This document shows positions 1 through 13,488 of a DNA stretch of 13,488 bases, one piece after another. The notes below the pieces were generated by a model. That model saw only the letters and a program-made list of their open reading frames with translations, was not told the DNA's origin and ran no database searches. How positions within the stretch are numbered: position 1 is the stretch's first letter; every line of letters begins with the position of its first letter. The DNA is from Ophryocystis elektroscirrha (lineage: Eukaryota; Apicomplexa; Conoidasida; Neogregarinorida; Ophryocystidae): positions 1 through 13,488 of the forward strand of contig JAQIFP010000112.1 of assembly GCA_030141585.1 (NCBI GenBank). Reading direction: 5' to 3'. The position numbers were made by a program, and so were the translations under genes.

Positions 1-143
1 ATTAATAATTAATATTAATAATTAATATTAATAATTATACAATTGAGTATATAGTAAATTAGTAGTTTTATTTATAAACTAAAGTTTATAAATAAAGTTT
101 CAAAAAATGCACTGTATAGACATTTATTGAATTATATGACTAG
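1..143 (+). other. 3' part of a METTL16 intron with a 13-bp minisatellite at the window edge
   Basis: Nothing here reads as an exon. Positions 1-39 are three head-to-tail copies of a 13-bp unit (attaataattaat, third copy slightly changed). The stretch ends in atgactag, the acceptor for the exon at 144. The last 10 bases of the window match bases 2-11, though both are AT-only. Confidence 0.7.
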
Positions 144-1268
144 GAATTACCCAAAGAAAAATTGTGCCCTACTGTACCCTCCCGAGCCAATTACGTTCAC
201 AGCGTAGCTGATTTGCTTAGTGCAGATTACACGGAAACCACTTATCAGTTAATAAGAAAAAATCGAGGAAATGTTTATATCCCTTTTAAAAAATATAGAG
301 AATTAGTTGTAGGCCCTGTTATTCAAGGTTTGGATATGTAATTCTATTTATCCTGTTTATATATTTCGTAGAGGATGTGGCGCTAACTTAATATATTCTT
401 TATTGTTCGCAGCAGAGTTTAAATGGAAAATTACAGCTTCGGATATTGATAAGGAATCGTTGGACCACGCTCAAGTATATAATTGCTGATTTATACAAAA
501 TTACAGAAAATATTAGATAAAAATGAACACCTAAAAGAATTAATCACTTTGAAACATCAGCCTTGTATTACGAATAAAATTTAATTACGGGTTTTTTTAG
601 ATAATCATGAAATTTTCACGAATATTTTAGAGAAGAACACTATGTAATTCCTTAATTACCAATTTTTATATTTTTTAGATATACGTTTAGTGTTTGTAAT
701 CCCCCCTTTTACGATATTAATTCAAAACCTCAAGAAAATCCTGCTCGTGTAAAATTGCACTAAAAATTCATCCGTTCATAGGGTTTTGAAGCATCAAAAA
801 ATGAGGCTTTTTTTGAAGGAGGAGAATATGCTTTTATATATCAGTAAGATTGCTAATGTCGAACCAAAGGCAGAATGATTGATGAGTCCATTCTATATAA
901 AAATAACGTTGTGTATGTTATATTATTATATATGCAACTTTTAGGTGGTTTACAACACTAGTTTCAAAAAACGTATATGTGAAAAAGTTGAAATCTATTC
1001 TTGCAAATATCTCGGTACATAAACTAACTAAAGATTAGTAATTATCTTTAGTCATAACTAACAAAAAATTTTATATAATTGACTTTTTAACAAAAATGCA
1101 CAATATTACTGGAAATCATTATACAATTATTTTGTCACTGTGAAAATAAATTATAAGTTTTATTGTTTAAATCCAAAATAACCTTTTTATATAATTCATT
1201 TATCTTATATATATCTTATATTACATATTTTGTTTATTACTATATATTACTATTAAGCTACATCAAAT

Positions 1269-1311
<43 letters not shown>

Positions 1312-1810
1312 ATAATAATATAATAGGAAGATATTTTTTAGCAGAATATAGACGTTAAGTAACAAATATTTCAGGTTACTCGTTACCATATAATGACGCT
1401 ATTGCAAGGAAAGCAAACAAGGTTATATTGATAGGAATCAATTTTTTTTTAGATGGGTTTTAGCATGGACGTTTTATGAACAGGAAGATAGGAGCAGTCT
1501 CATACAAGCTGCCGCTATTTACGGTTCCGTAGTAGATACAGCTTTTGATAATGAAAAAATTACAAATCACGAAAATGACTATTCTAGCTTCCCTTTAGAA
1601 AAAGAGGACAAAATCGTTCCGGAGGAATTAAATACTAAGGAACTGGAAATTGAAGTTATGAAGCAATTAGGAGACTTAGCTAAAACAACTTTCAATGCAA
1701 AAGTTGAGGAAGCTTACAGTCATAATAAAAAAAGAAACAGAGTAGACAGCGAAGAAGAAGAAGAAGAAGACAAAGAAGATTACAAAGAAGACTCGCATGA
1801 AGAATTGTAA
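144..1810 (+). CDS. METTL16: METTL16-type RNA N6-methyladenosine methyltransferase, 3' ten exons (5' part lies at the other end of the window)
   Basis: Family role: METTL16 enzymes use S-adenosylmethionine to methylate an adenosine in U6 snRNA and in some mRNA hairpins, in the nucleus. I read ten exons: 144-337, 372-474, 507-564, 601-643, 679-748, 782-843, 874-912, 945-1014, 1375-1421 and 1453-1810 (TAA). All nine introns are GT-AG and phases agree throughout, giving 346 residues. Family landmarks in order: CPTVPSRANYVHS at the start (human has IPTVPLRLNYIHW), the SAM-binding GLDIGCGANLIYSLL, the catalytic VCNPPFYD, then GGEYAF and QGKQTRWVLAWTFYEQ. The tail is acidic (EEEEEE) and shorter than the vertebrate C-terminal regions. 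No start codon fits: 144 follows an intron acceptor (atgactag) in phase 0, and the missing N-terminal part is exactly what 13145-13428 encodes. Stop at 1810 faces the RING gene's stop at 2060. Confidence 0.9.
1015..1374 (+). other. 360-bp METTL16 intron carrying (TA)n and (TAA)n
   Basis: This intron interrupts the gene in phase 0 between the codons for an NIS and a VTRYH segment. It is ten times longer than the other introns of the gene; a (TA)n then TAA microsatellite occupies about 1272-1324. No additional exon is needed by the alignment and none is visible. Confidence 0.75.
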
Positions 1811-2059
1811 ACAGTTCTATTATAGAAAAAAAGGTCTCTTCATATATATACTCTCTAATTCAACCCTTTTTAATTAATAATTTATAAATAAGGTACTCAT
1901 AAAAAAAAAAAAAGCTCTTATACTCAAAAATAAAGTTTCTTGATATCTATGACTTATAAAATTAATTAATTTAATAATTAATAATAAGAAATTGATGCAT
2001 GATTTGTAATAATTAAATAAAGAAATTTTAAACAGAACTGCTTTAAATTAAAACAAATT
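1811..2059. other. Convergent intergenic spacer
   Basis: These 249 bp lie between the METTL16 stop and the stop of the opposite-strand RING gene. The sequence is AT-rich with A runs (for example around 1901-1912) and would hold both 3' untranslated regions. I see no gene or RNA in it. Confidence 0.6.
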
Positions 2060-3050
2060 TTAAGAGGATGTATCAATAAAAATAGCCCAAAACATCACAG
2101 CAACACCTATAAATATTAAAATAGAGGATATCAATTGAGATCTCTGCTCTTCACGGGTTAAAGGACGCTGAGGTTCAGCAGTAGCAAAACCCTACGCTCA
2201 TAAAAATAAAAAAACTTCTATATTACGGAAAAACTTGTAAACTGGATGCCCATTCCAAATGGAAAAAACCCAAATTGTAAAGTAGCTCCGCTGTCACCCT
2301 AAATACTTCAATAAGAACACTTCTAAAACTATACCTTTATATTGTTTACAATCACTATATTACGTTTTTGCACATATCAATAAACATACATATATATATA
2401 TATATAATTGTACATTTCCTCATAAATCTATATATATTGTTGCTGAAACATTGTTAATTTCTTTCTATAATAATCTTAATATATATATATATATATATAT
2501 ATATTAAGATTAAATTTTTTTAAATTTTTTTAATTAATACATATATTAAATAATAATTGTAATAATAAATTATATAAAATAAATTTAAGGACATAGTAGA
2601 AATAATTAGTAACAGCTATATATAAATACGTTGAACTATATCTGTAAGATACATACACGGTTAGAAACTGGAGGTTCAGTACGATGAGCTCTGGGTCGTT
2701 CGGAAGAAATCTTAGGATGATCTCCATTGGCATCTTTGCGTGCTCCATCATTAAAATAAGCGACCATAGGATGCACGTATTCATTTGAACTATTTTTGCT
2801 TTCTCTGGATTCAGCGCCTACGCCGTAAATAGGAATGATAGTATCTCGAGTGACGCCAGATTTACAAACCGGACATTGCATAGTTCCACGATCTAGCCAG
2901 TGATAGAGGCATAGCCAGCAATACTGATGTCTATATGAAATTGTATTACATTACCATGTGGCCGCATGTAGTTACAACAGGGTCCACAGGTAAATCTAAG
3001 CATATACTGCATTTAAATTTATCATTTGATTGATCTGAAGTATCATTCAT
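2060..3050 (-). CDS. RNF5/RNF185-type membrane-anchored RING E3 ubiquitin ligase
   Basis: Complete gene of 188 residues (human RNF185 has 192). Exons, in transcription order: 2955-3050, 2657-2923, 2227-2298 and 2060-2191, with introns of 31, 358 and 35 nt. A C3HC4 RING opens the protein: CSIC at residues 14-17, then TTCGHMYCWLC and CPVCK. It is followed by the family signature of RNF5/RNF185, SGVTRDTIIPIYGVG, a hydrophilic linker, a glycine/phenylalanine patch (LQFGFFPFGMG) and a C-terminal membrane helix (ISSILIFIGVAVMFWAIFI). The family sits in the ER membrane and ubiquitinates misfolded membrane proteins in ER-associated degradation. The first intron must use the acceptor at catcag: the nearer atag would break the frame between CGH and YCW. 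The start Met lies 14 codons before the first RING cysteine. The upstream neighbour on the same strand ends 151 bp away. Confidence 0.93.
2299..2656 (-). other. 358-bp RING-gene intron with TA microsatellites and a palindrome
   Basis: This is intron 2 of the RNF5/RNF185-type gene, with donor gtatgt at 2651-2656 (reverse strand) and acceptor tatttag ending at 2299. It contains (TA)n at about 2389-2406 and 2480-2504. A short open frame here on the minus strand is intronic. Confidence 0.75.
2471..2512. repeat. 42-bp perfect palindrome around (AT)11
   Basis: The arm taatcttaat (2471-2480) is the exact reverse complement of attaagatta (2503-2512), and the 22 bp between them are alternating AT. 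The whole segment is self-complementary and could form a cruciform or an RNA hairpin. Confidence 0.9.
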
Positions 3051-3201
3051 CGAATTTACATTTTATAGCGTTCCTATTTAATCATAATAAAATATAATAT
3101 TACCATAAATTCTTTTTTTATTAAAATTCATTTAAATGAATATTTACTTAAATATGTTTGTAATAGTTTTTATGAAAAAAAAACACATAAATTAAATATA
3201 A
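3051..3201. other. Spacer between the CRMP-like gene and the RING gene
   Basis: This 151-bp AT-rich spacer separates two genes on the minus strand. It must contain the 3' end of the CRMP-like transcript and the RING gene promoter. No distinct motif could be picked out. Confidence 0.5.
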
Positions 3202-6200
3202 CTAATGTTTGAAAAAATTTGTAAGTAAAGATTTTTGAATATTATCATCATATATATATACACGATTATATAATTCGGTTAATTTAAGTTGATTTATTTT
3301 TTGATTATCAGAATTGTCTATATCACAAGCATTTTTTTTAGTTAAAATATCGATAAGTTCTGTGGAGGAAAGATCAAAGTTATTGAATAAATATTGTATA
3401 TCGGTAGGTTTATATTTTTGATTAAGATAGAATACAAGTATATATTTATAATGGTCCAAATATGTATATGGAGTATTCATAAGTTTATGTGTATTAGTAA
3501 AGGCTTTTGTTATAGTTTCGACGAAATACTCATTGTCACTCATTCGCCATATAAAGAATTTATATTTAAGTTTAGAACAAAAACTGTCGCTTTTTAAGAT
3601 TATAAAGGAGTTTGTATTTAGTTGTAAAAAAGATGTACAGTCTATATAACGCTCAAATAAGTTCTTGAAATAATTGATAAATTTTCTCCACCAATTATAC
3701 TTTATACGCATAATAAATAAGCGGCGTAAACTAACATTAATAAATGCGCAAATAAGTTCTATTAATATAATAATGATAAATGAATACATTATGAATTGGG
3801 ATATAGTTAAAATATTGTCATGTTCATTATAAATCGATATAAGTAATATAATGATTACGTAACATGTCCACCCTGACATGCAATGTCCTTCTAAATGCCC
3901 TAATATCCCATATTCCCTATTATCAAACGGTTTAAAATAATAGTGCAAAGATGTGAAGGTAATAGCAATGAATATCATCAAGGCTAGTCTATAATTATTG
4001 TTATATATGGAATTGTAAGAATGCGATATTAGCAATAATACTGTAGATTGTATATGCTTAACAATTTCCCAGTAATAATATTTATTTTCATAGCCATTAG
4101 TAAGGAATCCGAAACATAGACGTTTCATAGTAGTATTGAGGCTAAATCTATTCCTATATAATATAATGAATACAAAAATAGGGTATAAAAATCCCCATAC
4201 AGTAATAATGAATGTTCCCAAACAATAGATTTTGTAATAGTAAGGATCACTAAATGTACATTTTACGGAAAGTTCTTTTACTAAGCGTGCTTCATTGAAC
4301 AAAGATATACATTCTAACTCATGTAAGGTATTTTGGATAGCTATAGGGAAATATAAATATGTGACTATTAAGAATATAGGAATCATATCTTCAATAAGAC
4401 GTTTAAACGACATAAAATAAGTATCTGTTTTTATTGGTATCCATCTTAATAAAGACATAAATCTTTGTTCTCTTACTAAACAGATATAATCTAAATTATT
4501 GTCCTCCAATAACTCATATATTTGATTAATAAACCTTCTTCTTACAATCCGTAATATAAATATTGTTATAGAGCAAAATATTGTTAAGATGCATATAACC
4601 ACAAAGGGGTATATTAAACAAAGAATACCACGGAGTAATAATAAATTTGTGTATTCGGCAGCTTTGGAGTACTTGTAATATAAGCAGTCAATATTTATAG
4701 TAAATAATAATCGAATTGTCTCATTATTTATTGTATATGAAGATAGAAATTTATTGCCAAAACTTTCTAGTCCAAAATAATTAAGAATTTGCTGTAATAT
4801 GACCACACGATCTGCTTTTTTATACAATGCTGAGTTTCTTTGAGAAATATTTAGCCTTGTAAAAAAATAAAGCATAATTTTGAGTACAATTGATTGTACA
4901 CTGCGTCTATCGAACCCATTTCGTACTATCACATATGTGATTCCTATACATAAAACACTTATAGCCATAAGTTTAATAAAATCTGTTATTGCAATTAACC
5001 TTAAATTACATAAAACACATTGTGAAGTATGAATTCTTGTATAATTTGTATCACATCTTTGACATAATGGCCCTACAAATCCTTTTTCACATTTATTGTC
5101 TCCCAAACATGGTTCTCCACAATACATGTATAATGCCTGCTCCGGTCGTTTAGGAAAACTTATCTTTCCGTATGATGGCTTTGCTTTTGGTTGCATGTGA
5201 TATATACCTGGTAAAGTTACGTTTGTTTTTATATTGTCTTTTGCTAATATAAAACCATCTAGTGTTAATCCACCTGGGCATTCTGCACCAATTGGACAAA
5301 CGTCACAAATATGCTTTGCTGTATTGTAATAAGAATTCGGAACACAGTAGCAAACACCTTTATTAATTGTACCAGCTAATGCAGTAGCTAATACGGGACA
5401 TACATGAGAACAACGCGAATTTCCCGCACGTGGTTTAATATATCCAAATTGACAACGTACACATTCTGTATCAATTAATTCATAGTCGGGAGGACATACA
5501 CCTGTAACAAGAAAAATTACATAAAAAATTATGTATTATAAAAATTTATATATATATATATTTGCTTACAGTCAGCTTCGCTAGTAGCTATAGAAACCAT
5601 GACTAAATCTACAGAACGTCCCTCTGGACATTTAACACGTTCATTGCCTCCAGGACAATAATAATCTTTATTGATGCAAAGTCGGCAAGTCAATGTTTTT
5701 TCACCAAAGCGGTTCGCATTATAGTATCCTGGTTGACATATACATTTATGACCTCTTCCATAAGGACTGAGCCAACTGTTTTGAGGACAAAGAATACATT
5801 GGTTTTGAGAATACACAGAAGAAGGTTTATCACACATTTCGCAAATATCCAATCGAGAATTATATATATAGTTTCCTGCGCAGAGACAACTGCTTGGAGA
5901 TTTTTGTCCTGTTGTAATTGTGTATGAATTGTCTCTGCATGGCTTCATTACTGAAACTACCCCGTTTTTTGACCATTCATGATAGCAATAGGAATCTTTC
6001 AAACATGGCTAAAGGAAAAAGAATAAATTACTCTGTATGTTACTTAACACAAATAACACATATATTATAAGAATACATATATATACACATAATTTAGTAA
6101 TAAAAATATATATATAGATATAGATATATATACATATAAATATAATTTTACAATCATATAGTATACATGCATTAGGTTATAAATAAGCAAAAACGTGAAT

Positions 6201-6424
6201 TCTAGGATATCGTAATATCTATGATGTTTACCTCACAAGTCTTACTATTGCTACGGAAAAACCCAGGAGCACAAATGCAATCATCTAAAGATGTAACAAT
6301 TTTTTTATATGTTAGAGAATTAGGAGGACAACGAGTACATTCAGTGTTTCCAATAAAATTTTTATAATAACCAGATGGACAGGGTTTGCATTGTTTTTGG
6401 TTCAATGTATACCCTTTTTGACAT
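3202..6424 (-). CDS. CRMP-like GCC2/GCC3 cysteine-rich multi-pass membrane protein, 5' end not found
   Basis: Three exons join in phase: 6232-6424, 5570-6008 and 3202-5501 (TAG), with introns of 223 and 68 nt, giving 976 residues plus an unseen N-terminus. The first about 375 residues hold several cysteine modules of the GCC2/GCC3 / ephrin-receptor-like type (for example CKPCPSGYYKNFIGNTECTRC, CICAPGF, CICQPGYY, CPGGNERVKCPEG), ending with CEKGFVGPLCQRC. About eight hydrophobic helices follow (genomic about 5010 down to 3730). Between them are GYENKYYYWEIVKH and YYFKPFDN, which resemble conserved segments of protist GCC multi-membrane proteins. A soluble tail of about 170 residues ends the protein. 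In Toxoplasma and Plasmodium, CRMPs are much larger and act in rhoptry discharge or sporozoite biology; this role is only inferred here. An in-frame stop lies just upstream of the acceptor at 6424, so at least one more 5' exon is needed. No signal peptide is visible. Confidence 0.8.
6009..6231 (-). other. 223-bp CRMP-like gene intron with TA/GATA repeats
   Basis: The donor gtaaac follows TGT GAG and the acceptor ctttag precedes CCA TGT, both in phase 0. Degenerate TA and GATA-like repeats occupy roughly 6058-6145. No coding segment is visible. Confidence 0.7.
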
Positions 6425-6682
6425 CTGAGGCAAAGTTAAAATATAATATTTCTATATATTTGATAAATTTGACAATAAATTTCAAAAAATTTTAAATTAT
6501 ATACACTATATACAAACTATATTATAAATATAAGCTATTTTTATTAGATTATGTGTAAAAAATTAATACACAAATTACTAATATATAATATATATATATA
6601 TATATATATGTGTTATTGTACAAATTTGATGAAATGAAGTTTATATTAATTGTCATTTTTTGAAGACTTATCAACTATAGTA
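6425..6682. other. Divergent region between the CRMP-like gene and REV1, with (TA)n
   Basis: Almost all A/T. A (TA)n tract lies at about 6581-6609. The minus strand must hold missing 5' sequence of the CRMP-like gene if the region is genuine. A mini-exon at 6622-6656 would join in phase (11 codons plus 2 nt, donor gtacaa) but encodes no signal peptide, so I do not accept it as the start. The plus strand should hold the REV1 promoter. Confidence 0.5.
6581..6609. repeat. (TA)n microsatellite
   Basis: A TA dinucleotide run between two genes that both seem to lack 5' sequence. A tract like this can mislead short-read assembly. Confidence 0.85.
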
Positions 6683-7274
6683 ATGGATAATAATTTAGAT
6701 TCAAAACAATCCTGTTTATGTACGGATGACAATGTCGATAATTTTGTGGAAAATTTTTATAAAGCTTCCCGCTTACATTATATAGGTACATGGAAAAAAA
6801 GATTCTTCCAAAAGTTTAAAATTTGTCCTTTCGCTAGTATGCCAAACTACACATCTTTTATTGAAAATAATTCTCAGCGAACACTTATTAATAAAAATGC
6901 TCCTAATCCTAATGAGGGTTTTACTGTTAAAGGGGAGCCTGTGGTTATAATACACGTAGATTTTGACGCTTTTTTTGTTTCGGTAGCACTGAAATATAAT
7001 CCAGATCTTGTGAATGAACCGGTAGTAGTGTCTCATGGATCTTCCTCAGGTTCTTTTGGAGCGGAAATAGCTTCATGTAATTATATTTCCCAGCAGTATG
7101 GCATAAAAAAAGGAATGTGGATACATCGTGCCCGAAAACTATGTCCTCAACTTAAAATTTTACCTTACAATTATGAAGGCATCGATCAAGCTAGCAATAC
7201 TCTTTTTGATATATTGACAAACATAACAAGTCGTATTATGCCAAGTAGTATAGACGAGGTATATTCAGTAATTT

Positions 7275-7312
<38 letters not shown>

Positions 7313-10300
7313 CAATAATAAGAAAATATGTTTGTATATTTACTTTCGAGTTTCTCATTATTCATATGTAATAATATATTTAATTTCCATCTATAGCTAT
7401 AAATTATAGAAATTAATTAAATTAAAATTACGTTTGTTTATTCCAGGCTTATTTGCAACTTGTAGGAAATTTCGAAGTCCAAAATGCGTCAAGCGTAGCT
7501 GAATGGATACAGAAAAAAGTTTTTGAGAAAACTTCTTGTACTGTATCAATCGGCTGTGGGCCAAATCGGCTTTTGGCAAAGCTAGGGAGTGCAGTTGCTA
7601 AAAAGTTGCCTCCAAAGGAGAAAAGAATAATTTATGTACAAAATGCAGATGTATTTCTCAGAGATTTGAAACTTAATATTTTACCAGGCATTGGAGAAAA
7701 GGCGATAGAGAAATTGAATAATATGTCTTTGTATACATGCAAGGATGTATTAGAAAAATCATCCCTTTCTGAGTTGAAATCCGTATTAAGTCCTAAAATA
7801 GGACTACTTTGTTGGGCTTTTTGCTTAGGATATGATATAAGGGCAATTCCAGATACTTTAGAAGAATGGTCTAATCCTCAAACTATTACTGTATCTGTTA
7901 ATTGGGGTATCCGTATTACCAAAAAAATTAGTCTCTTTAACTTATTTCATCAAATTGCTCAAGAGTGCGAAAACCGTTTAAAAGAAATAAACAGTAATAC
8001 ACGGGATATTCTTTTAAAAGTAATAAATAAAGGGAAACAGTATTATCATCATTTATTTAGATTATTGCAATTTTTTGATTTTTTTTTGGTTTTTAGATTT
8101 TAGTTAGAGCTCCCGATGCACCAATTGAACCAGAAAAATATGGAGGTTGTGGAATTTGCAATGAACTTTCAAAACGTTCAGTTTTTGCAGGCTCATTGGG
8201 CACAGCCAATGATATAGCAGTTCAAGTTATAAATTGTTGGGAAAATAATATAAAGAAGTAAGATTTTGCTTTTTAATATTAATATATCAAAATATGTTTA
8301 TATAAGCTCATTAAAATACAACTTAAACAAATATTAATCTATCTTTTATTTTTAAATTTTAACTGTATTTTGTATTCGTAATAACTGCACCATGGTACGC
8401 AACTCATGTATTTTATAAAATATTCAATGTGGGGAGTAGATCAACTATGCATACATTTAGGAATACTGCTTAAAATTAAATTTTGATTGAATTATATGAC
8501 ATAAACCCGATAAAAGTGCAGTTTTTTTGGTGACTTATTCAATGTTTATATACTGTATTCTATATTAATCAAAATCATTTTTTTTTAATTAATTCAAATT
8601 ATAATTAATTAATAAATAATACGCATATTTAATTTGAAAATTATTTGATTTACGTGTATACACATGTTGAAATAAATGTACATGTACATGTAGCAAAATA
8701 GTTTTTTAATAGTAATTGAATCAGAGATTGCACAATAAGCGATATTAGAGGAATAACTGTTGTATTATCCAAATTTAGTTCTGATAGTAAAAACGTTCCA
8801 AAGGAATCTTTGTTGACAATATATTCAAAAAATAACTGTAAAATCCCAGAAATAACAATTACTTCAACTAACGGCGTTCAAAACGCAGATTTTAAGACAC
8901 CTATTAGCCATGGTGCAGTTTTAAGTGCAAGTAATGCACCAAATACTAAAGTAGAAATGTTTACTCCACCGCCTAAACAAGCACTAAAACTCCAATTATC
9001 CTATAAAAAACCGCCTCGTGTAAAATATACAAGTTCAAAGAAGAAAAATCTCACTAAACTTAAACCGACCAAAAGTAACTCTTTCCAGCAGCGTCTTAAT
9101 TTCGTTAAACTGGACAACAATAAAAAACTTAAAATTACCGATCAAATAAATGAGTCAGTACCTTTGCAAAACCCAATTAATGAAGCAATAGTTTTGCAGT
9201 CGCCCCCGCCGCCGCCGCAGCAAGAGTCTCCTATGAATGAAGTTCCCATCAATGAGTCATCCATAAATGAAGTTCCTATTAATGAAACCCTCATAAAAGA
9301 ATCTCCTATGAATGATTTTCGTATAAATAAATCTCCCATTAATGAATTTCGAATGAATGAACCTCCTATAAATGATACCGATGATACAATTAGTGAACCA
9401 GCACTCAATCAAGAAACTTCAAAATATTCCATGTATTATGAACAGGTTCCGGAAGACACTTTTGAGACTGATGAACCAGATATCGACAAAGGGAGTTGTA
9501 GTGACACAGATGTGACAATGAGTGAACCGGTTCCAAATGTATTAGACAAAAAATCTCCAATAAAGCAGCTTATGAATAAAAATATCCCACTAAAAAAATT
9601 ATCTAATACTAATGTAGCAAACAATAATGAAATGAGTAAATTAATGAACGAAAAACTACACGTTTATATGGAACATTTGGCAGATTTATACCAATTGCCT
9701 ATAGAAATGTGCCGTGGACTAGAACTGACTAATACTGAAGAAGAAAGTTACGCAGAATTATCTCTCAACAAAAATGTAATAATTATGGAAATAATTAATG
9801 ATAGTGATATGAAACATGATAGTATACCAGATAGTGTATCACAAGAACTTGTTAATATAATATATACTGACATTAATAAATTAGTAAAAAATTACCCATT
9901 AAATAATAACCATAATTGTACTTTGCAAAATTGCTATATCTGCTTTTTACAACATTTTTATGTAACATGCTGCAATAAGCCTGGGTTCCGAAGATATAAT
10001 TACATAAAAAATATTGTAGACTATATAATATCAAACGCTAAAAATTCGATAAATTCGTTTGAAATGTGTAATAATGAAAGCTTGAATCTTCAAGATACAA
10101 TATCACCAATAATAGAAGAATATTTTTCCAAAATTCCTCTTAAAGTAAAAACGCCATTGATGTCATTTTTTCAAGACATTACCAGAGTAGCAATTGGCTT
10201 GTATTGTTATCATCAATACGACTTATTTTCTGTATGGATGAAACAAGTTTATATAATACTAGAAAAATCAGTATCAACTGAGAAGAATTTCATGATTGCT

Positions 10301-10372
10301 CGAAACATAGTGTTCAGCAGTCTAAACAAAATTGAACTTTTAATAAAAGCAAAAACTTTTAATCCGGTTTAG
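6683..10372 (+). CDS. REV1: REV1-type Y-family translesion DNA polymerase (deoxycytidyl transferase), BRCT-less
   Basis: Four exons, 6683-7258, 7447-8019, 8097-8257 and 8725-10372 (TAG), give about 985 residues. REV1 inserts dCMP opposite damaged G and abasic sites and scaffolds other bypass polymerases. Seen: the N-digit ASRLHYIGTWK at residue 28 onward, whose Arg-Leu pair in yeast and human REV1 reads dCTP and displaces the template base; palm motif HVDFDAFF (D93, D95); SSIDEA, with D191-E192 at the exon end; CTVSIGCGPNRLLAKLGS; the helix-hairpin-helix LPGIGEKAIEKL; KYGGCGIC and ISDIRGI in the little finger. Next come a low-complexity linker with pentapeptide repeats, a possible ubiquitin-binding LP motif (residue about 761), a cysteine cluster, and from about 897 a helical end resembling the REV7/polymerase-binding C-terminal domain. 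Residue 1 is the first in-frame ATG; a TAA lies in frame at 6647, so no BRCT fits contiguously. Splice sites were chosen to keep family alignment. Confidence 0.9.
7259..7446 (+). other. REV1 intron 1 with (TA)n
   Basis: A 188-bp GT-AG intron placed directly after the catalytic Asp-Glu codons. A (TA)n run fills about 7279-7309. The exon resumes with GCT TAT, restoring the DEA motif. Confidence 0.8.
8258..8724 (+). other. 467-bp REV1 intron 3, unusually complex sequence
   Basis: The donor gtaaga follows the lysine-rich end of exon 3 and the acceptor ttgaatcag opens the exon reading DCTISDIRGI, so the little-finger alignment has no gap. Unlike other long introns here, 8380-8560 is not simple repeat. 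It includes a 36-codon open stretch with no homology I recognise. About 8678-8692 is a run of overlapping acatgt/tgtaca palindromes. Confidence 0.65.
9201..9220 (+). repeat. GC-rich proline/glutamine codon run
   Basis: A nearly pure G/C run encodes SPPPPPQQ just before the pentapeptide repeats. It is the sharpest composition spike in an otherwise AT-rich window. Confidence 0.8.
9230..9376 (+). repeat. 15-bp coding minisatellite in REV1 (pentapeptide repeat)
   Basis: About ten units of five residues follow the pattern x-(I/M)-N-(E/D/K)-x, for example PMNEV, PINES, SINEV, PINET, PMNDF and RMNEP, at residues about 606-654. The units diverge in sequence and keep the frame, so it is an old repeat in the disordered linker and not a fresh slippage product. 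Confidence 0.85.
10359..10372. other. Antisense overlap of two coding ends
   Basis: The REV1 stop (TAG, 10370-10372, + strand) lies beyond the ZFWD-type stop (TAA, 10359-10361, - strand), so 14 bp encode both C-termini. Both readings are supported by intact frames up to their stops. Confidence 0.85.
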
Positions 10373-12047
10373 CCTCAAGTTTATTCCAAAACCAAACAGC
10401 TAATGTACCTAAATTATATCATACAATTGGTTTTATGTATATATACCATCAAAAGCAGTTGTTATGAAATAAGAAGGATGGCCTCCGATATTATGCACAG
10501 CTCGTACATCAGTAGCGTGTTGTTTTATTTGAAGTTTCTCTTCAAAACTGGGAAGACTCAATATTGAAAATAAACCGTTAGGTCGACCACAAATCAAAAC
10601 TGGGCCATCAACACTAGACGATCCTAAAATATTAATAATATTTATTTTTATAACTACAAGTAAACTTAAATTATAGCATTTAAGCCAATAAAAAATGACA
10701 GTGTAACTAATATAATCATGTAATAATATAATAATAATATTGATTATATAATAATTATAATAATAATATTAATAATAAGAATATTTATTTATTATACTAA
10801 TTAAATAATATTAATAATAATAAATTTAACAATATTATAATAATTAATTTATTAGTTAATATATTTATTACCTGTCATAGTACATATTTTCTTATTTTGG
10901 GTGTCTGTCATATACTTAGTTTTATCAATTGTAACTTCACTCATATCGTTTATATTATAAACTATGATTCTTCCTTCAAGCAAGCAGCATATGACATGTT
11001 GCTCAACTAAGAGTAGATCCTAAATGTCCTATATATCAATATATATATGTACCATAACAACAGGTGTGGATTGGTTCATGAAAGTGGGGACTTTAAGTTC
11101 TTTGACTACACTCAAAGATGTCAAGTCTACAATCTTGATTCCCCCGCTACACCCAACCCATAACTGTCTAAATATATTAATTATATTAATAATCTTTACT
11201 TGGAAGTAGCGGTATTAATCTCAATAAAACTTGTAATTGCTGTATGTAACTAACAGACGTATTTAATTAATCAAAAACTTTACTTCAATAGACGCAGTTT
11301 CAACAAATATCTTCTTATCTATTTCTGGTTTCCAGAACTTTAAATTCCCTGACCAATCGGCTGATACAAGTATATTTTGGATAATTTGAACACAGTGTAT
11401 TTCATCATTATGAGACTGAAACAAAATTTTGTTCATTATTCAAAAATGTAAATTTTGGATATCTATTATATATGTGATACATAAATATACACAAATTTAA
11501 ACAAATAAATGACGAATAAATACTATAATTAGATATTATCATTATATAATACAAATAAGTTATTTAATAACTTATACTTACTTTTAATATAAATTCGTGA
11601 TTGCAAGCTAAATCGACTACATATATTGACCCGTTACTTAATCCACAGACTAAACTATAAAATTTTCAGAACTTCAACAAAAAAACTGTACCACCCATAA
11701 CCGGCATATAAAGATAAACATGATGAACTTAAATTATACGTTTTTTGTAACTTTATTTCCATCTTTTCTGGATCTGACTCTTTTCTGGGATACATTATCC
11801 ATTTCTATCATAAATAAACAATAATTTTTTATATAAACACAGCTAATTTTATATAAACAGTGAGAAGTATATATTAGCTTGAAGCAACGCTTTATTAAAA
11901 CATGATAGAAAGCTATTTTAATCGAATAATAAAAAAACTCAATCACAGAAAAAAGTTATTTTTTTCTTTTTATTCTAGTTAATTAAAATTTATTACTATT
12001 ATTAACTAATTTTTATTAGTTATTATTATTTTTATAATAATTATTAT

Positions 12048-12100
<53 letters not shown>

Positions 12101-13037
12101 AATTTTATAATAAAGAAATGGTTAAATTTGATTAACATTTTCAAGTGTATACTTACTTTAACTGTTTTATCACGAGAACCAGTAAAGATTTCAATTACGT
12201 TGACGGGTTTGGAAAAGCCTAAATCCAATGATTCGGCTTCAGAGAGAGTAGAAGGGAAAGATGTGACAGAATAAATGCCTCTGTCATGAGCACGAGGTAA
12301 ACGAGAAACTAAACGTAAATTATGCTGGAACCTGACTGCGTATGCAAACAGTCTCAACATTACTTGCACTTGGGAAATTGTTTGCAATACCCTTGAGTAG
12401 ACCAAAATTTGCATAGTGTTAAATCATAATTGATCTTTGGAACTGGAGGTGGAACATAACGCTTTTTAGATTTGTGGGTATCAGATGACCACTCGTTTGC
12501 TGCAGCCATCATTATCTTAAATTAAAAGTTCCACTCACCTATTCTTGGACCTAACATAACAATATACAAATTATATATAATAAAGTTTATTTATTATTAA
12601 TCAAATCATATTAAAAAAAATATCCTTATGAATATGGAAATGTTCGTGTATATATAACAACAATAATTATAATAATAATAGTAATTATAATAATAATAAT
12701 TATAATTAAAATAATTATAATTATTATTGATAATTGATATATATATAAAGTCTTTAGTAATTAAATAAATAAATAGATAATTTTGCATTATAACACTGTT
12801 ATACTAATATTATAAGTATAAGAACACAAATAAAATGTCTTTAAAATTGCATAATTAGCATAAATATATGAAGAAATCTTGCACGGTATAACATAAGTAA
12901 TAAATAATTATTAAAGACATACCAATATTTGAGGATACTTTATGTTTCCGTGAGCGCCGTATATGTGAACTAGGAGGGTCGCACATATGCTCTTCTTTCG
13001 GTGGAGCGTCGACCCGACGCTTTAAGCGGCGTGACAT
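10359..13037 (-). CDS. CCCH zinc finger / WD40 repeat protein (ZFWD type)
   Basis: Twelve exons, in transcription order: 12923-13037, 12539-12550, 12364-12499, 12157-12331, 11692-11804, 11582-11654, 11284-11415, 11200-11249, 11053-11167, 10872-11019, 10447-10623 and 10359-10408 (TAA). Phases agree at all eleven GT-AG introns and the sum is 1296 nt, or 431 residues, close to plant ZFWD proteins. A basic N-terminus leads to a CCCH finger with spacing C72-x8-C81-x5-C87-x3-H91, typical of RNA binding. A WD40 propeller fills the rest: FTGSRDKTVK, LVCGLSNGSIYVVD, LVSADWSGNLKFWK, LWVGCSGGIKIVD, and the last blades PVLICGRPNGLFSILSLPSF and FITTAFDGTLAVWFW, the latter close to ZFWD C-termini. The start is firm because a TAA immediately precedes the ATG in frame. 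Function in this lineage is unknown; an RNA-processing scaffold is a reasonable inference. Confidence 0.88.
10624..10871 (-). other. 248-bp ZFWD intron of TAA/TTA repeats
   Basis: The intron joins ATG ACA G to GA TCG TCT and is almost wholly degenerate ATA/TAA repeat. No coding content is visible. Confidence 0.75.
11805..12156 (-). other. 352-bp ZFWD intron with a long (TA)n tract
   Basis: The donor gtaagt follows the first WD blade ending DKTVK, and the acceptor gatag precedes AAA TGG. A (TA)n run lies at about 12055-12100. No exon is missing from the WD40 reading here. Confidence 0.75.
12551..12922 (-). other. 372-bp ZFWD intron 1 rich in TAA/TTA
   Basis: This lies between the first coding exon and the 12-nt micro-exon. 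It carries degenerate AAT/ATT repeats (about 12660-12735) and a short TA run. An open frame of Asn/Tyr codons on the minus strand is low complexity. Confidence 0.65.
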
Positions 13038-13144
13038 TTAAAAGTCTGCGGAGCCAGCCAAAAAACCTGAATATCAGAAAACATTATTAATGTTAATATT
13101 GCTATAGTTTTACAGCAAAAATACGCATAAATATAATTTGTATT
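13038..13144. promoter_or_regulatory. 107-bp shared divergent promoter region
   Basis: The ATG of the ZFWD-type gene (minus) and the ATG of the METTL16-type gene (plus) point away from each other across only 107 bp. Both promoters and both 5' leaders must fit here. The left part (13042-13072) is noticeably less AT-rich than typical spacer sequence; I recognise no named element. Confidence 0.6.
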
Positions 13145-13428
13145 ATGTGTTCAAAACAAATTGAACAAGAGAATAAAAGATTTAAAGGTGTACAAGAACA
13201 TATTTGTAATAATGATTATATACACTGGAGGAGTAAACACTTTGAAAATCAAGGAGCATTAAACTTTAATGAATTGATAAATAAATACGCTTATCTAAAA
13301 CCTTAGTATGTATATATATTTGTTTTACACGTTATAGCTATGTTAATGAAAAATATCAATATAAATACCCAGAAGCTCAAATTGCTCTAACCAAATGTAT
13401 ATTAAGTGAATTTTACGGTATTGATTGG
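13145..13428 (+). CDS. METTL16: METTL16-type methyltransferase, 5' two exons (runs off the right edge)
   Basis: Exon 13145-13305 starts with ATG and joins exon 13338-13428 across a 32-nt GT-AG intron, giving 84 residues. The stretch LINKYAYLKPYYVNEKY followed by YPEAQIALTKCILSEFYGID lines up with the METTL16 N-terminus (human YLASKYPDFKQHV, then DPEAVRALTCTLLREDFGL). The exon ends GAT TGG before a gtatgc donor in phase 0, and the window stops 60 nt into that intron. Reading on past 13428 without splicing does not help: the bases from 13429 soon hit a stop, and splicing to the nearby AG at 13450-13451 also leads to a stop. The next expected residues of the family are those opened by the exon at 144. 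Total over both parts would be 430 residues in 12 exons. The start lies 107 bp from the divergent ZFWD-type gene. Confidence 0.85.
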
Positions 13429-13488
13429 GTATGCTTTACACGCATTTTAAGGTTATAATTTGTACTAGATAGTTACTTTTAATAATTA
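13429..13488 (+). other. 5' part of a METTL16 intron at the right edge
   Basis: It starts with the gtatgc donor and contains no plausible exon. Joined to 1-143 it would form one 203-bp phase-0 intron. Confidence 0.65.

Follow-up and report, generated by a model that had tools for sequence, protein, structure and literature searches.

In this work, we asked how a single methyltransferase gene can have its first two exons at the right end and its remaining ten exons at the left end of one stretch of DNA from Ophryocystis elektroscirrha. The stretch, referred to here as the window, comprises bases 1–13488 of the scaffold C13. A first reading, made from the letters of the window, had described the split gene and had taken the two ends to close on each other, either as an extrachromosomal circle, as a head-to-tail amplified segment or as a falsely closed assembly. 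The observation on the gene is right, whereas the record does not bear out the conclusion of a closed unit. An assembly fault or a local duplication left unresolved in the record is a likelier cause of the arrangement than a circular DNA.

One gene at the two ends of the window

The 5' part of the gene consists of exons 1–2 (13145–13305 and 13338–13428, + strand), which encode residues 1–84 and were recognized by their splice sites, reading frame, exon-1 motif and protein matches in the own genome (13145–13312 and 13324–13431). Exons 3–12 lie at 144–1810 on the + strand and encode residues 85–431 with the stop codon; this part was recognized by splice sites, frame, PF05971 and own-genome matches. 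From splice sites and frame, the single exons were placed at 144–337, 372–474, 507–564 and 601–643 (exons 3–6), at 679–748, 782–843, 874–912 and 945–1014 (exons 7–10), and at 1375–1421 and 1453–1810 (exons 11–12). When spliced by hand, the gene comprised 12 exons and 431 residues in a frame that stays open and unbroken across the window edges, in agreement with the sequence-only reading. All ten visible introns have GT..AG borders; nine of them are 30–36 nt long and one is 360 nt long. The intron at the edges is intron 2. It starts at 13429–13488 (+ strand) with a GTATGC donor and continues into a run of N from C13:13489, and its end lies at the left end of the scaffold (1–143, + strand), where the acceptor precedes position 144. 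If the window edges were joined directly, this intron would measure 203 nt. The donor after 13428 and the acceptor before 144 are both phase 0, as had been stated, and complementary phase-0 halves at two edges are indeed not expected of a correct linear single-copy locus.

The joint was examined by aligning the 5' and 3' halves separately to the 120 listed homologues, and it was judged only where the 5' half scored at least 50, so that 26 of the 120 (scores below 50) were left unjudged. In the 94 judged homologues, the residue difference from the query was 0 in 64, 1 in 29 and 2 in a single case. Moreover, in a five-row alignment, both the exon-1 and the exon-3 motif are present in a single chain of P0003, the homologue from Cystoisospora suis. 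Since the spacing at the joint agrees in the 94 homologues and both motifs occur in one chain of P0003, the segments 13145–13428 and 144–1810 are, on these alignments, one gene whose halves neither overlap nor leave a gap. The earlier description of the joint was correct as to the contiguous halves, but it had omitted residue W84, which sits between GID and ELPKEK.

The exons occur once in the record. When the methyltransferase protein was searched against the own genome (8.0 Mb, E ≤ 1), all nine matches fell on C13 and formed one exon set, and both matches of PF05971 to the own genome were likewise on C13. A second methyltransferase gene elsewhere in the genome was thus rejected, as none was found by either the protein or the PF05971 search. 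DNA searches of the own genome with window positions 12800–13488 and 3202–5520 returned self matches only, and the search with 1–2000 returned the self match together with three matches on the reverse strand that fall within palindromic repeats of the query itself.

With regard to the identity of the protein, exon 3 alone matched PF05971 (Methyltransf_10) at 32.6 bits, above the cut-off of 23, which places the gene in this family. In a preliminary reading, solved structures of METTL16 matched the first 182 residues with an E value of 5e-13, and psilocybin synthases did so with one of 2e-14; an NPPF motif is readable in the spliced protein. The PF05971 score, the METTL16 structures and this motif are the features shared with the METTL16 / RlmF methyltransferases. 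At E ≤ 0.001, the protein search retrieved 876 proteins; the best 120, which were listed, are mostly bacterial RlmF or unnamed, and Cystoisospora suis is a named eukaryote near the top of them. Unlike RlmF proper, the protein of the split gene reached 219.6 bits against the RlmF model NCBIfam PRK11727, under its cut-off of 302. METTL16 proper has C-terminal RNA-binding (VCR) domains and U6 snRNA activity. The name METTL16 given in the sequence-only reading fits the PF05971 and structure matches, but it is uncertain because bacterial RlmF proteins make up most of the listed matches. Because of the RlmF score below cut-off and the mixed listed matches, we prefer the label METTL16/RlmF-like, which may be read as standing between both names and does not imply a tree placement.

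At the left edge, Tandem Repeats Finder reported the 13-bp minisatellite that had been noted there, with 2.8 copies at 1–37. The match of the last 10 bases of the window to bases 2–11 was also confirmed. In the controls, a 10-base match to window 1–80 was found for 37 of 17,292 random positions and for 97 of 22,685 AT-rich positions, both taken from other contigs. As a 32-base pattern with up to three mismatches, the left-edge array occurs 12 times in the genome, compared with 10 times for the reversed control. The similarity of the edges is mildly unusual and would fit a single intronic array that they flank on either side. Structured RNA as an explanation of the edges was rejected, since the Rfam search of the window gave no match at gathering scores.

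The scaffold beyond the window

The window does not represent a complete molecule. The scaffold C13 has a total of 28,302 bases, and base 13488 is directly adjoined by 3,053 N (C13:13489–16541), after which the scaffold goes on for 11,761 bases of different DNA that contain further open frames; C13 extends 14.8 kb past the window edge. On this ground, a self-closed contig was rejected, and the claim that both window edges terminate one molecule was not confirmed. When C13:13489–22000 was compared with the window by blastn, all of the best 50 rows were in AT microsatellites.

The nature of the N run bears on what the edge at 13488 means. The first 10 kb of 24 other contigs were sampled, and N were present in five of them, in four as leading N. 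Contigs starting with N are unusual in public records, and therefore some N runs of this record, for example at contig starts, are probably not assembly gaps. On the other hand, of the contig starts without leading N (C13 included), 17 of 21 lie in a tandem array, versus 38 of 1,000 random internal positions; the arrays at the sampled starts have short units. Such arrays are probably where the assembly breaks. The DNA to the right of the C13 N run resembles the contig starts in that it begins in an array, here of 180 bp. Among the flanks of N runs that were seen, two of four on the right and one of two on the left are in arrays, the exception on the left being window base 13488. Because contig starts are rich in arrays and the right flank begins in one, the evidence leans towards the run C13:13489–16541 being an assembly gap.

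Origin of the permuted order

With one exon set in permuted order, a linear chromosome requires that one join within the window is wrong or that another copy exists beyond its edges. The weights that we give to all readings are judgements and not computed values, and some explanation other than those discussed below is considered rather unlikely. We hypothesize that the split of the gene is, on balance, probably a draft-assembly fault next to the scaffold gap, in which a piece with one gene half came to stand on the wrong side. An assembly error had been among the options of the sequence-only reading and is the likeliest of them, although as a misplaced piece beside a gap and not as a falsely closed circle. 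Both the place of the false join and the run of N as an assembly gap are points that we infer. The methyltransferase gene would be an ordinary linear 12-exon gene; assembly would have halted in intron 2, and the half-gene piece would have been placed on the wrong side of the contig bordering the gap. In the preferred version, exons 3–12 (window 1 to about 2000) would belong in the 3,053-base run after 13488 and would have been wrongly joined before the neighbouring RING-finger gene, within 1811–2059. In the alternative version, a piece of about 0.8 kb with exons 1–2 would have been wrongly joined at 12551–12922 and would belong to the left of base 1.

Several observations favour such a fault. 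There is a single exon set, all of it on C13, and the scaffold continues via the N run into other DNA with other genes. The run would have room for exons 3–12 and their flank, which together take up about 1.8 kb between base 1 and the end of the gene. Furthermore, breaks at arrays are supported by the frequency of arrays at contig starts and by the 180-bp array to the right of the run. In draft genomes, contig pieces can be misplaced or collapsed at repeats and at scaffold gaps. The present locus resembles such cases in its permuted one-copy gene beside an N run and in the contigs of the record, which mostly start in tandem arrays, but it differs from them in that the suspected join at 1811–2059 has no repeat and the window itself contains no N. 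The left-edge array also speaks against the fault, as its 37 bp (versus 140–389 bp at 15 of 20 other contig starts sampled) offer no obvious cause of a break. Moreover, there would be no gap here if the C13 run were one of those that are probably not gaps, given that four of the 24 contigs lead with N.

The two candidate sites of the false join were compared. The spacer at 1811–2059 separates the 3' ends of two convergent genes, the methyltransferase gene and the RING-finger gene (– strand, from 3050 to a stop codon that ends near 2060), and either a false join or a duplication junction could lie in it. The sequence 1790–2355 had no match elsewhere in the own genome that would account for a false join. 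The absence of a repeat shared with other places at 1811–2059 makes a simple misjoin less likely and favours a real junction (duplication or circle), and it was taken into account in the weights given to the readings. A misjoin at the (AT)13 run (2479–2504) was rejected, as the RING gene spans this run; the C-terminal stretch of that gene presumably resembles RNF5/RNF185. The other possible site is the AT-rich stretch at 12551–12922 (– strand), upstream of the CCCH/WD40 gene, with an imperfect microsatellite of 66–70 bp (array 12654–12735). The exon of the CCCH/WD40 gene proposed at 12923–13037 is without homology support in the one homologue, P0241, the sole one found among 1,958 candidates, which is in favour of the fault. 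As the alignment of P0241 with the CCCH/WD40 protein does not begin before query residue 70, proof of a join at 12551–12922 by an N-terminal CCCH/WD40 exon was not obtained.

The main rival is a head-to-tail chromosomal duplication that was collapsed by the assembler or is hidden in the N run, which we regard as possible but doubtful. The unit, in the order methyltransferase, RING, cysteine-rich membrane protein, Y-family polymerase and CCCH/WD40, would be present in at least one full occurrence, and the next methyltransferase copy would have its exons 3–12 in the N run, followed by the genes from C13:16542 on; in a variant, two tandem paralogues would be broken in the same intron. This arrangement would explain the closing intron without any false join, and it agrees with the lack of repeats at 1811–2059. 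The 3,053 bases of the run are large enough for a second 3' half. Head-to-tail amplification, as had been suggested, is thus a possible source of the order, but the visible record holds no second copy of any exon, and window 3202–5520 was found once. The unit and its ends are single copy there, although a collapse or the N run could conceal a second 3' half.

An extrachromosomal circle of about 13.5 kb with five nuclear genes, beside or instead of the chromosomal copy, is very unlikely. The window edges would fit one intron, and the repetition of bases 2–11 by the last 10 bases would agree with closure. However, a free circle would close on itself and have no other flanks, while here the record goes on past 13488 into other DNA, and the genes resemble ordinary cellular genes. 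The sequence-only reading had named flanking sequence different from the opposite end as evidence against closure; such sequence is present beyond the N run, though not directly at 13489, which reads N. The free circle has no positive support. Extrachromosomal DNA amplicons of Plasmodium falciparum were demonstrated by pulsed-field gels, by copy numbers from PCR and by treatment with exonuclease (PMC8246734). A circle would resemble these amplicons, which are chromosome-derived DNA found outside the chromosome of an apicomplexan, but the present scaffold continues into other DNA.

Extremely improbable is a true permutation, in which exons 1–2 would lie about 11 kb downstream of exons 3–12 on the same strand, and trans-splicing of the two transcripts would yield a working mRNA (or with the order restored by a head-to-tail repeat or a circle): the literal assembly does show one exon set ordered 3–12 then 1–2 with phase-0 sites intact at both loose ends, but trans-splicing by intron pairing was rejected, since the visible intron parts (60 bases of the upstream half, with the N run beyond) pair at –17.7 kcal/mol, no better than dinucleotide shuffles (mean –17.9; 246 of 500 as good).

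The main value of the locus is as a warning that a stretch cut at an N run can mimic a closed circle. Should a duplication or a circle prove true, five genes would have been amplified in the compact, AT-rich genome of a protist, probably an alveolate, and this would be moderately interesting; a permuted, trans-spliced gene would be of high interest.

Genome context and neighbouring genes

In the HSP90 tree, the own-genome HSP90 groups with four environmental proteins on a long branch (support 99/98). This tree used 17 of the 120 listed matches and excluded the three with the top scores, which are over-long proteins of plants and fish; in the wider tree, 9 of 15 inner branches are open. Named myzozoans among the listed HSP90 matches include Selenidium, Chromera, Vitrella, Plasmodium, Hammondia and Gregarina. 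For the gregarine Porospora gigantea, the genome report gives a median intron of 28 bp and a GC content of 54.3% (PMC9250747). The present gene is similar in its mostly very short introns (9 of 10 of 30–36 nt) and the genome in its size, whereas the GC content of the window is 27.7%. Taken together, the named HSP90 matches, the short introns and the Cystoisospora match of the methyltransferase make it likely that the genome is that of an alveolate related to apicomplexans.

The most GC-rich 120 bp of the window (12948–13067; 54% GC versus 27.7% for the whole window) lie between the divergent CCCH/WD40 and methyltransferase genes and are the only place where 120-bp windows reach at least 50% GC. 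A 39-residue frame within them had no Pfam match, and the Rfam search of 12800–13200 gave no match of note, with seven sub-threshold matches (best E 0.84). On the far side of the N run, the open frame at C13:27752–28000 had no Pfam match; a stretch of it may resemble the start of Hint (Hedgehog/intein). Between the RING and CCCH/WD40 genes, a large cysteine-rich membrane protein is encoded at 3202–6435 (– strand), which contains an ephrin-receptor-like repeat (PF07699, 44.3 bits) and weakly matches DUF7631. It is followed by the Y-family DNA polymerase gene at 6650–10372 (+ strand), in which the IMS domain is interrupted by an intron with an AT repeat, and the long frame after this domain contains imperfect 15-base repeats at 9229–9379.
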